The notes below the pieces were generated by a model, which ran no database searches, had not been told where the DNA came from, and was given only the letters and a program-made list of their open reading frames with translations. Of a stretch of 6,751 bases of DNA, positions 2,479-5,903 are shown piece after piece (position 1 is the stretch's first letter; each line of letters starts with the position of its first letter). The stretch lies in the NCBI GenBank assembly GCA_021827465.1, contig JAKAVX010000144.1:1-6751 (forward strand), read 5' to 3'. This stretch comes from Deltaproteobacteria bacterium (GTDB lineage: Bacteria > Desulfobacterota_B > Binatia > Binatales > Binataceae). The position numbers were made by a program, and so were the translations under genes.

Positions 2479-2632
2479 AAATCGCGCTCCCTCAAAGTTT
2501 TTTACATAGTCGCGCGTGCGATTCCACCGTGGCCGCTATTCAGGCCGCCGGAGCCGTTCCCCGCCGCCGCGCAACGCGTCTTTGCGCCCCGCGGATGGCA
2601 CGGTAAAGATATTCTCGAAGGGACACAAGAAC

Positions 2633-4540
2633 ATGCTGCGCGAGTATGGACCGGAACGTCTCGGTGGGCAGGGTCTCGACCGCAACCAATACCAATCGGG
2701 CGAGCGCGCGATCCTGGTTCTGCTCGGCGACGAGCCCGCGCGCGAGCAGGTCGATATCGTCGCGACCTGGCGCGAGGGCGCCTACGAGGCGTGGTCGCGG
2801 CGCGGGATGGTCCGCTTCAAGCGCTACGCCGACGACTCCGACGGCCTGCACTTCGAAGTAATCGAGCAAATCGGCGAGAATCCGCTCGAACGCCAGGACC
2901 CGTTCGCCGTTGCGACCATCGAAGAGGAACTGCGCGCCGCCGCGGCCAGCGGCAACCCGTCCGACGATCCCAATCTCGCCTTCTTCGAGCCGCACGCGCT
3001 GAGCTATCCTTTCGCCTACGAGCGTATCGCGCAGGTCTTCGACAGCCCGCGCGGTCCCGACCTCATTGTCAGCCCGAAGTCCTACGCCTACGGCTCGCAG
3101 CGCGGCCAGCACGGAGCGCTCGACGTCGTGCAGTCTCGCGCGCCGCTCATCTTCTCGGGTCCGGGGCTTCGGCCGGGAAGTTACGGGCTTGCCGCGCGCC
3201 ACGTCGATATCGCGCCGACGATCGCGCGCCTGATGGGATTCGCGGCCGTGCGCGGTACCGGCGCGGACGGCTCTGAGCGCGAGGTCTATCTGAAGCGCCA
3301 GGACGGCCGCGCACTTTCAGAGATCTTTGCCGACGGCGGAGCGCCGCGGCCCGAGCGCGCTTACATGATCCTGATGGACGGGCTCGCGCATTCAGAGCTC
3401 GTCTATTGGCTCGCGCGCGATCCCCGCGCGATTCCGAACCTCGCGCGTCTTGCGGCCTCGGGTGCGTTTCTCTCGCACGGCTCGACGGTCAACTTCCCGA
3501 GCATCACCTGGCCGAGCCATTCGACGATCCTGACCGGTGCATGGTCGGGCCATCACGATGTCGTCAACCCGACCTTTCATCTCCGCGAGCATCGCCGCAC
3601 CGTCCCGGTCCAGGGAATCGTCTTCGAGACCGAACAATGGCTCGGCGATCGCGTTGAAACCCTCTACGAAGTCTTCAAGCGCAATTTCGGGCCGCACGCG
3701 ATAACCGCCTCGATTCATGAGCCACAGGGACGCGGCGCCGACCATGCGGTGTTCGAGCGGCGATTCGTCGGCGACAAGGCTCGCCTCAAGGAAATCACTT
3801 CATTGCTCGCCGCCGACGTAAGCCCGCGATGGACCGCCGAGAAGGACCCCGCGATGCATCGTGAGGAGATGATCGACGTGCGCGGGATGGCGCAGCTTAT
3901 CAACCTGATAGAGCATTGCGGCGACCGGCCGCCCGTCTTCGTCGCGCACGAGTTCGTCGTGACCGACGCGGCGGGCCATGAGTTCGGACCCCATCACGAG
4001 GGCCTTCGCGAGGCGCTGTTCAGGACTGATCGCAGGATCGGGCAGGTGATGGAATTGCTGCGCGGACGCGGGCTTCTGGATTCGACATTGTTCGTCGTCA
4101 CGTCGGACCATGGGATGGCGGCGCAGCGTGTCGAGCTTGCCGCGAATCCGACCGCCGAGCCTTTGCAAAGGGGAGTGCGCGGCGTTTACCCGGAGCCGAT
4201 GATCTATCTGAGCGATCTTGCGGTCGAATGCGTCAGGGCGCGCGATGGAAGAACGATTCGCGTAACTGTCTGCGACAACGACGCCGCGCCGGATGGAAAC
4301 CGGCCGCCGGTCGAGGGGGCGCGAGTTGCGATACTTGGCCGCTCGGGCGAGGCGATCGGACGCGCGAGCACGTCAGGCTCGGGCACGGTTGCCTTCGCGA
4401 CGTCGGCGCATCTTCGCGACCATGAAATCCGGGTCGAGGTCGAGCACGACGAGTTCAACCCGCGCACGATGCTTGCCGACGGCACGCCGATTCTGCCCGA
4501 TCTGCGGCGCATCCTCTACGGCGACCTCGCGCGCGGCTAG
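2633..4540 (+). CDS. AlkP-superfamily phosphodiesterase/phosphatase-like protein with circularly permuted motif order
   Basis: A 635-residue cytoplasmic-looking protein (no signal peptide) of the alkaline phosphatase / nucleotide pyrophosphatase superfamily, two-metal enzymes that hydrolyse phosphate mono- or diesters; the substrate is unknown. All expected active-site residues appear, but in unusual order. Residues 22-232 look like the C-terminal half of a normal member: GQHG with His160, the PLIFSGPG strand (171-178), VDIAPTIARLMG (191-202) and DGRALSEIF (224-232). Residues 243-525 look like the N-terminal half: LMDG with Asp249, FPSITWPSHSTILTG with presumed nucleophile Thr292, TDAAGHEFGP with Asp445 and His449, and VTSDHGM with Asp492 and His493. 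No second HG motif follows. Residues about 538-610 form an added beta-rich domain. ATG 2633 is chosen for AAGGGA (2618-2623) 9 bases upstream; the frame is open to a GTG at 2516, but that extension is Arg/Pro-rich noise. The stop overlaps the convergent DUF488 stop in CTAG. Confidence 0.88.
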   Translation: MLREYGPERLGGQGLDRNQYQSGERAILVLLGDEPAREQVDIVATWREGAYEAWSRRGMVRFKRYADDSDGLHFEVIEQIGENPLERQDPFAVATIEEELRAAAASGNPSDDPNLAFFEPHALSYPFAYERIAQVFDSPRGPDLIVSPKSYAYGSQRGQHGALDVVQSRAPLIFSGPGLRPGSYGLAARHVDIAPTIARLMGFAAVRGTGADGSEREVYLKRQDGRALSEIFADGGAPRPERAYMILMDGLAHSELVYWLARDPRAIPNLARLAASGAFLSHGSTVNFPSITWPSHSTILTGAWSGHHDVVNPTFHLREHRRTVPVQGIVFETEQWLGDRVETLYEVFKRNFGPHAITASIHEPQGRGADHAVFERRFVGDKARLKEITSLLAADVSPRWTAEKDPAMHREEMIDVRGMAQLINLIEHCGDRPPVFVAHEFVVTDAAGHEFGPHHEGLREALFRTDRRIGQVMELLRGRGLLDSTLFVVTSDHGMAAQRVELAANPTAEPLQRGVRGVYPEPMIYLSDLAVECVRARDGRTIRVTVCDNDAAPDGNRPPVEGARVAILGRSGEAIGRASTSGSGTVAFATSAHLRDHEIRVEVEHDEFNPRTMLADGTPILPDLRRILYGDLARG

Positions 4541-4927: not shown

Positions 4928-4938
4928 GATCGTTCAGG

Positions 4939-5394
4939 TCACTTCTTGAGCGATATGAGATAGTCCGCGACCGCGTTCGCATCCTCCGAATCGAGCCGAA
5001 ACGGGGGCATCGGATGGCGGGCCGGAACGCCGCTCGGCGCTTCGCCGGTCTCCATGAATTGGACAAATTGCGTCCTGCTCCAACCGTTGGGCAATCCCGC
5101 GATCGACGGCGCGAATTTCGCGGCTTTCTTCGAGACCACGAATGGCAGCGAACCTCCCTGAAGCCATCGTTTGAGATCCGGCTTGCCGTGGATTCTCGGT
5201 GTATGGCATTCGCCGCATACCATGACCCGCTTCACGAGATAGCGGCCGCGAGCGACTTCGCTTTTGGCGCTCACATTGGAGGGTGCCGATAGCACGAGCG
5301 TCGCTGCCGCCGCCAGCAGTATCCGGCCGCGGCATTTCACTCCCGTTCCCTCGCACGCGAAGAATTTTTGCGGCTGAGACCCTGTTCGCGCCAT
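4939..5394 (-). CDS. Secreted monohaem cytochrome c
   Basis: A small c-type cytochrome, 151 residues from ATG 5394 or 133 from GTG 5340. It would be exported by Sec, receive haem covalently in the periplasm and carry electrons there; its partner is not visible. The haem motif is CGECH (60-64), with His64 as proximal ligand. The likely distal ligand is Met129 in HPMPPF. The surrounding RGRYLVKRV...CHTPR..GKPDL pattern and the closing DANAVADYLISLKK helix fit the single-domain cytochromes c related to dehydrogenase cytochrome subunits. A signal peptide is clear: basic KCRGR, hydrophobic ILLAAAATLVLSA, and a cleavage-type VSA about residues 41-43. Both starts have good ribosome sites. GTG 5340 gives a signal peptide of normal length (about 25 residues), while ATG 5394 adds 18 residues. 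The gene lies fully inside an open out-of-frame extension of the upstream methyltransferase remnant. Confidence 0.88.
   Translation of the reverse strand: MARTGSQPQKFFACEGTGVKCRGRILLAAAATLVLSAPSNVSAKSEVARGRYLVKRVMVCGECHTPRIHGKPDLKRWLQGGSLPFVVSKKAAKFAPSIAGLPNGWSRTQFVQFMETGEAPSGVPARHPMPPFRLDSEDANAVADYLISLKK
5341..5352 (-). promoter_or_regulatory. Ribosome binding site favouring the alternative GTG start of the cytochrome c
   Basis: Reading the minus strand, GAGGGA (5347-5352) precedes GTG 5340 by 6 bases, followed by the basic and hydrophobic segments of a standard signal peptide. It competes with the upstream site at 5400-5406. The signal-peptide geometry favours this start; the ATG codon favours the other. 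Confidence 0.4.
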
Positions 5395-5399
5395 TTCGT

Positions 5400-5406
5400 C
5401 TCCCTT
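5400..5406 (-). promoter_or_regulatory. Ribosome binding site for the ATG start of the cytochrome c at 5394
   Basis: On the minus strand AAGGGAG stands 5 bases before ATG 5394. It lies just past the natural C-terminus (VVGIK) of the methyltransferase remnant, so it probably served as the intergenic ribosome site when that upstream gene was intact. Confidence 0.45.
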
Positions 5407-5407
5407 G

Positions 5408-5815
5408 TTTTATTCCGACCACCATCCATTGCGGTCCGCTCAGATGCGCGACTCGGGTTTCACGAAAGCCCGTCTCACGCACCCATCCGCTGCAATCCGG
5501 GCCGGTGAAGTCGAACCCTCCGTGCGTCTCGATAAGCATGTTCAGGCTCGTCAGCAGCCCGTCAAGATTCATGCGGCGCTCATCGTCGTTCAAATGCTCA
5601 TAAACGATCAACGCGCCGTCCTTCGGCAGGGCGTGGTTGGCTTTCCCGAGCAACATGTATTTCTCGTCGAGGTTCCAGCCGTGCAGGATATGCCCCATTA
5701 TGAGCACATGCGCGCCCGGCATCGGATCCTTCATGAAATCGCCGGGGTAGAATCGCAGCCGCTTTTGAAGACCGAATGACGCCACGTATTCGTCGAAGAC
5801 CGGGCCGAATGTGCT
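5408..5815 (-). pseudogene. C-terminal remnant of an O-methyltransferase (SAM-binding half lost)
   Basis: About 136 codons match the C-terminal part of the O-methyltransferase family (plant-type/hydroxyneurosporene-type fold). In order: GPVFDEYVASFGL, LRFYPGDFMKDPMPGAHVL, IMGHILHGWNLDEKYMLL, GALIVYEHLNDDERR, LLTSLNMLIETHGGFDFTG and a closing MVVGIK, the usual family end. The dimerisation domain and glycine-rich SAM motif, some 200 residues in a full-length enzyme, are absent. The frame begins right after a TGA at 5816-5818, where it meets a fragment of an unrelated oxidase. The expected stop after VVGIK is missing, so the frame runs on to 4934 through the cytochrome gene. There is no start codon with a ribosome site; the first candidate is GTG 5785. 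Without the SAM site it cannot work as a methyltransferase. Decay after a deletion is the simplest reading; an assembly join is the alternative. Confidence 0.78.
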
Positions 5816-5903
5816 TCATGAAGTTGGCCGGATCGTACTTCTTCTTGATCGCGACCAACCTATCGTGATTCAGCCCGTAGGCGTCGCGCACTTTCCGCAA
5901 ACG
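5816..5903 (-). pseudogene. C-terminal fragment of a berberine-bridge-type FAD oxidoreductase
   Basis: About 29 codons immediately after the TAG of the neighbouring methyltransferase read RLRKVRDAYGLNHDRLVAIK followed by KKYDPANFM. This matches the BBE (berberine and berberine-like) C-terminal signature of FAD-linked oxidases, typically YG.NYDRLVALK.KYDPTN.F. The family's N-terminal FAD-binding domain and substrate domain are missing, as is any start codon or ribosome site. After NFM the match stops, and within a few codons sequence homologous to an O-methyltransferase takes over in another frame. It is in the same frame as the upstream methyltransferase, separated only by TAG, which looks like coincidence because that protein already has a normal end. 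It is too short to fold or function. The identification rests on one short but characteristic motif. Confidence 0.65.

Follow-up and report, generated by a model that had tools for sequence, protein, structure and literature searches.

The alkaline phosphatase (AlkP) superfamily serves as a standard model in work on catalytic promiscuity and on how active sites evolve, and its site is built from an Asp, a Thr or Ser, an Asp..His pair, an Asp-His pair and a His of a later segment. The described systems closest to the protein analysed here are the NPP family (Xanthomonas NPP, PDB 2gsn and 7n1s; Pfam PF01663, Phosphodiest), PafA (PDB 5tj3; NCBIfam NF042991) and the phosphonoacetate hydrolase PhnA (PDB 3szy). 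The protein is encoded at positions 2633-4540 (+) of a 6,751-nucleotide stretch of a Deltaproteobacteria bacterium (contig JAKAVX010000144.1, assembly GCA_021827465.1), the whole of which is called the window. Judged by its sequence, this 635-residue product is an AlkP-superfamily protein with a circular permutation: all the site residues of the superfamily are present, and the segment with the last His is N-terminal, unlike in the NPPs. We consider it highly probable (about 0.9) that the product is a natural circular permutant, a metal-dependent phospho-ester hydrolase belonging to the NPP/PafA-like side of the superfamily. This reading is carried by the residue order, the swapped-order similarity of both pieces, the conservation and a confident whole-chain model.

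The PF01663 profile was matched by residues 245-497 with 101.2 bits, well over the curated cut-off of 23, but only over positions 3-223 of 342, and the last third of the profile found no match after residue 497. The window protein differs from the NPPs also in an extra C-terminal beta domain and in the Asn following the nucleophile, which stands at T+20 (N312), while the NPP spacing is presumably +21. PafA and the PafA-like family of L093/P0121 gave the best sequence match to the moved segment among those seen, although PafA has the ordinary segment order. With the NCBIfam PafA equivalog the window protein scored 38 bits, far below the cut-off of 650. The ordinary PafA-like family used for comparison (A4) was built from 35 of the 120 homologues listed for L093 and has an invariant K-D-R motif, in a region that aligns to the permuted family only with gaps; the Lys/Arg pair for monoester binding in PafA we take to be K162/R164. 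PhnA, which we assume to have the ordinary segment order, gave a lower Z than the NPPs. The term phosphonoacetate hydrolase, given by JGI to many homologues, is a pipeline name only.

The initial annotation had proposed a circular permutation from the motif order, naming H160 (in GQHG, with PLIFSGPG and VDIAPTIARLMG) as the first motif, followed by D249, T292, D445/H449 and D492/H493. Each residue and motif was found at its place and in this order, which is seen directly in the sequence. Two alignments were used to assess their conservation. A1 holds 71 of the 120 listed homologues, while A2 consists of the window and 68 of the 79 loci obtained in a genome scan (the best 79 loci of 85 relatives). 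Omitted from A2 were the partial L015, L065, L068, L069, L071, L076 and L077, the frame-split L008 and L079, and the full-length L007 and L024; a third alignment, A3, drops L061 and L042. In A2, whose rows are 48-85% identical to the window, the seven catalytic residues were identical in 69/69 rows, and therefore the motif set, as read from the sequences, is more than chance. In the closer homologues of A1 each was present in 71/71 rows, except H449 (70/71). When the A2 profile was compared with the PDB, the columns of D249, T292, D445, H449, D492, H493 and H160 fell on D15, T51, D171, H175, D218, H219 and H324 of the 2gsn chain; adding 39 to these numbers gives what we take to be D54, T90, D210, H214, D257, H258 and H363 of the Xanthomonas NPP. 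The piece matching H160 is the last one in that chain and the first one in the window protein. The features of the permuted core are as follows.

2633..4540 (+): whole gene of the permuted AlkP-superfamily protein, 635 amino acids (open frame, Pfam Phosphodiest, full-length homologues)
2633..3262 (+): moved segment, residues 1-210, counterpart of the C-terminal portion of the AlkP core in ordinary members (profile alignments of residues 132/133-209/210)
3110..3112 (+): H160, counterpart of the last metal-binding His of the superfamily (conserved; phmmer and profile alignments weak in single chains, strong in family A4)
3263..3352 (+): linker, residues 211-240, between the former C- and N-termini (variable; relatives carry insertions; similarity to ordinary families breaks here)
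3353..4216 (+): residues 241-528, first Asp strand to the strand following DHGM, which form the front of the AlkP core in ordinary members
3377..3379 (+): D249, metal ligand, D15 in the 2gsn chain (profile alignment, conservation)
3506..3508 (+): T292, nucleophile, T51 in the 2gsn chain (profile alignment, conservation)
3965..3979 (+): D445 and H449, metal ligands, D171 and H175 in the 2gsn chain (profile alignment, conservation)
4106..4111 (+): D492-H493 in SDHGM, metal ligands, D218 and H219 in the 2gsn chain (profile alignment, conservation)

The two segments were found to resemble opposite ends of ordinary proteins. Besides the Phosphodiest match of the later segment, the N-terminal piece matched the C-terminal ends of ordinary AlkP proteins: residues 132-209 fell on positions 465-544 of 554 in the NCBIfam PafA profile, and phmmer aligned residues 133-214 with 445-527 of 549 in PafA 5tj3 (E 1.6e-5). 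In 2gsn the phmmer alignments ran from residues 244-314 to 10-73, from 440-497 to 166-223 and from 152-210 to 316-375. The similarity to ordinary C-termini stops near residue 210 and the core starts near 235-241, with a variable stretch between them. A junction linker does exist, as had been proposed, but it is longer than the 233-242 assigned to it, extending from about 210 to about 235-241. The permuted AlkP part extends to about residue 528.

The order of the pieces was examined with hidden Markov models (HMMs) made from A2, the N-piece covering residues 1-240 and the C-piece residues 241-500. The targets were open reading frames (ORFs) of loci from whole genomes, the first six genomes having been searched with PF01663 and then loci L080-L173; an ORF entered the count if it came from L080 onwards and held both pieces at E<0.05. 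Both pieces occurred in 68 ORFs, and in 43 of these (35 distinct) the N-piece came first, an order departing from the ordinary N-to-C order of the superfamily, which was seen in the other 25, C-first, ORFs. The scores of the N-piece were 57-407 bits in the N-first and 12-48.5 bits in the C-first ORFs, so the two ranges are separate. In addition, there were 11 ORFs with a match to the N-piece alone and 14 with one to the C-piece alone. With a back-permuted HMMER profile the sum scores of ordinary ORFs were about equal to those with the native one; since HMMER scores the pieces separately, only the piece order is informative in this comparison.

Comparison with family A4 by hhalign gave, in the native order, two out-of-order alignments, residues 237-503 with 33-368 (score 99) and residues 133-210 with 473-553 of 562 (score 93, 97.6% probability). 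After back-rotation these were replaced by a single alignment of 405 columns (score 152, E 3.8e-19). When the cut was moved along the chain, the score was 99 for cuts at 0-180, 159-160 at 210-235, 149-152 at 240-420, 129 at 450 and 93-99 at 480-510; it climbs whenever the N-piece comes after the DH region, with the peak at the linker. In the control scan A4 was rotated against three NPP-type proteins and the unrotated form was the best (173.5, compared with 107-162 at cuts 40-520). Both parts of the window protein are similar to one family, in swapped order and with the catalytic core present once, which is the pattern of a natural circular permutation; the profile comparison and the controlled rotation scan thus bear out the arrangement first proposed from the motifs. 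In the case of the early moved segment (residues 22-110), whose profile matched 0/25 C-first ORFs, the equivalence to the ordinary core would follow from the order of elements in the structure model, where the moved segment consists of helix 17-32, strands 40-81, strand 144-148, the last-His loop, strands 172-184 and helix 190-200.

Homologues with the same arrangement proved to be numerous. At least 1259 related proteins were found at E<=1e-3 among the best 7997 candidates scored. The 120 matches listed, the window's own protein included, had 92-100% query coverage and, excluding the window's own, 64-85% identity. Both pieces were present in the permuted order and in one frame in 71/79 loci, the remaining 8 being contig-cut or frame-split; L042, within the 71, holds the permuted order only from residue 58 on. 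The loci come mainly from Binatota/Deltaproteobacteria, Chloroflexota, Myxococcota and Actinomycetota, with one Spirochaeta (by record title). In a tree of 69 rows, labelled by the submitters' record titles, Chloroflexota (31 rows) and Actinomycetota (10 rows) each formed one side of a branch with support 100/99, and the window grouped with L001 and Binataceae; this separation of phyla suggests an old family. Its conservation across many bacteria of several phyla gives the permuted form the look of a functional natural variant rather than of an accident of sequencing. Searching with A2 at E<=1e-20 gave one match each in 12/41 genomes of the family of a Binataceae record, in 2/99 genomes of the phylum sample of the same record and in 18/38 genomes of the family of Tepidiforma (G001). 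In the phylum of G001 the N-piece was matched in 17/151 genomes, only G001 itself scoring above 51 bits. The permuted family is patchy in even samples of two phyla. Among viral contigs 4 stretches matched a pattern and none encodes a relative, and the anti-phage library gave no match. The Tepidiforma flava copy (L042/L084/L162, NZ_CP115149.1) is split across two frames near residue 58, by sequencing error or decay; the Tepidiforma copies L021 and L023 are in a single frame each.

More distant permuted proteins were obtained with the N-piece in the phylum of a Myxococcaceae record, where 76/188 genomes matched, ordinary proteins included. These were L139, L141, L142 and L143 (frames of 981-1102 amino acids), L140, and L145-L147; the aligned ones share 30-36% identity with the window. 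In an 11-row alignment of this wider group H160, D249, D445, D492 and H493 were invariant, T292 was replaced by Ser in 4/11 rows, and H449 by Glu in 3/11 (L145-L147). It is quite likely, from these comparisons, that the proteins form an ancient natural permuted branch of the AlkP superfamily, so far undescribed, with at least three sub-branches: cytosolic-looking proteins of ~630 amino acids, long ones of ~980-1100 with lipoprotein-like N-termini, and a group of ~650-720 in which one metal-ligand His is Glu. All of them would rebuild the site from both chain ends, and each may have its own chemistry. The distant proteins come from Myxococcota-type genomes, two of which (G275 and G325) carry two copies each. 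The long ones have ~320-440 residues ahead of the N-piece, several start with lipoprotein-like leaders (by eye), and no Pfam match was found in the extension of L139 and L141, the two checked.

The AlphaFold2 model of the full chain was one confident unit with a predicted template modelling score (pTM) of 0.90, a value higher than we would expect if a 240-residue piece were placed randomly against the remainder. The old chain was probably cut past the strand following the DHGM motif, in the loop before the next helix, and the old ends would have been joined through the ~30-residue linker. The N-terminal piece, from helix 17-32 to helix 190-200 and including H160, would then fold onto the central sheet of residues 241-528 and supply the last metal ligand, completing a two-metal site in a single chain. 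From the chemistry of the Xanthomonas NPP we assume that D445, H449 and H160 bind one metal, and D249, D492 and H493, together with the nucleophile T292, belong to the other. T292 would attack the phosphate to give a covalent intermediate, which then undergoes hydrolysis, as elsewhere in the superfamily. The usual route to circular permutation is tandem duplication followed by loss of the outer halves, and the same origin may be supposed here; no duplication intermediate turned up, no search having been aimed at one.

Several observations weigh against this reading, some of them in favour of a particular alternative. The permuted family gained nothing by rotation against the same three NPP-type proteins (137 native and at cuts 30-240), which marks the limit of this comparison. 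The H160 piece alone was weak in the comparison of A2 with the PDB (1.5 bits for 2gsn, 5.7 bits for 4lqy, unreported in 5tcd), although it aligned strongly in the ordinary family A4. No match to an AlkP structure was seen when the N-terminal piece was used on its own in fold searches; its core strands may perhaps need the rest of the sheet, and the whole-chain pTM and the strand comparison described below support a common metal site indirectly. The confidence of the full-chain model in the H160/metal-site region was modest, with a predicted local distance difference test (pLDDT) of 68 and 62, which together with the Glu in place of H449 in three distant relatives would suit a permuted AlkP-fold protein that is catalytically dead and has a binding or structural role. 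We regard this as very improbable, given that A2, despite the divergence of its rows, shows no substitution at any metal ligand or at the nucleophile, and that the distant relatives exchange Thr only for Ser, the other hydroxyl nucleophile of the superfamily.

A two-domain fusion seems somewhat less probable still. Residues 1-232 would in this case be a degenerate remnant, the tail of an AlkP domain since lost, and would pack apart from a C-terminal domain with a last His of its own. Such a fusion would agree with the variability of the linker, with the confident model of residues 1-240 alone (pLDDT 89.8, pTM 0.85) and with the His at residue 605, common in the closer homologues (59/71 in A1). 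However, no His after H493 is universal, the best column of A2 (residue 612) having it in 46/69 rows, and thus none there can serve as the family-wide last ligand; H160 is present in every row of A1 and A2, and a degenerate tail would not retain it. This was the case which the initial annotation had named as fatal to its own proposal, with residues 22-232 belonging to another, separate domain as its tail, and it was not borne out. The whole-chain pTM also opposes a fusion, as do the core strands after H160 (172-175 and 182-184), which are present in the full model and absent when the N-piece is modelled alone, different alignments having been used for the two models. An assembly chimera or frame artefact uniting parts of two genes is refuted by the 71 one-frame permuted loci from separate assemblies and by the near-complete coverage of the protein in the listed homologues.

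The frame is uninterrupted, as annotated, from the ATG at 2633 to the stop at 4538-4540, and the G+C content at codon positions 1/2/3 (0.711/0.478/0.794) is evidence for coding. An alternative in-frame GTG at 2516 would extend the ORF, while homology begins only at ATG 2633. No obvious signal peptide was seen by eye at the N-terminus. Two features lie outside the permuted core.

2618..2623 (+): possible ribosome-binding site AAGGGA, with the ATG 9 bases downstream (from reading of the sequence)
4238..4537 (+): added beta-rich C-terminal domain, residues 536-635 (strands of the model; Pfam matches under threshold; without match to family A4)

The C-terminal domain (from about residue 536) weakly resembles bMG3/CarboxypepD_reg, with Pfam scores under the cut-off; CarboxypepD_reg appears, again under the cut-off, in the distant permuted protein L147. 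The neighbours in the window are acetyl-CoA hydrolase/transferase-like, DUF72, bactofilin, DUF488, cytochrome c and methyltransferase genes. No substrate clue was found in the gene neighbourhoods of the window and L001-L079, where the largest neighbour clusters comprised 9 loci; neighbour genes were called by a crude longest-ORF rule, and some clusters look like wrong-frame ORFs. The bactofilin gene (2131-2478, -) is divergent from the enzyme gene, and a bactofilin-like cluster lies upstream and divergent in L004, L005, L006 and L018 too. A short ORF at 5598-5900 (-) with a berberine-bridge-enzyme C-terminal motif (BBE) overlaps a longer ORF at 4934-5785 and may be what remains of a gene, or an unusual end of one. 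The 3.7 Mb genome of L028 has 40 PF01663 matches, an unusual number of AlkP-superfamily segments.

The initial annotation knew of no described family with this arrangement, and in agreement with this no earlier report of circular permutation in the AlkP superfamily was found in the open-access PMC literature, outside which most subscription papers lie. In a survey of structural outliers (PMC3779223) the alkaline phosphatase-like outlier is an insertion, and two other superfamilies are named as permuted. The fold, the motifs and the chemistry are already known, and the wiring is new as far as the literature covered here extends.

Members of a large family at present go under the names of ordinary phosphodiesterase, alkaline phosphatase family protein or phosphonoacetate hydrolase, and the final third of the profile is missing from their Pfam match. 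A permutation keeping every catalytic residue, together with a tree that keeps phyla whole, suggests a fold that can withstand re-wiring across its catalytic core, and the permuted family offers a ready system for asking which chain connections the site needs.
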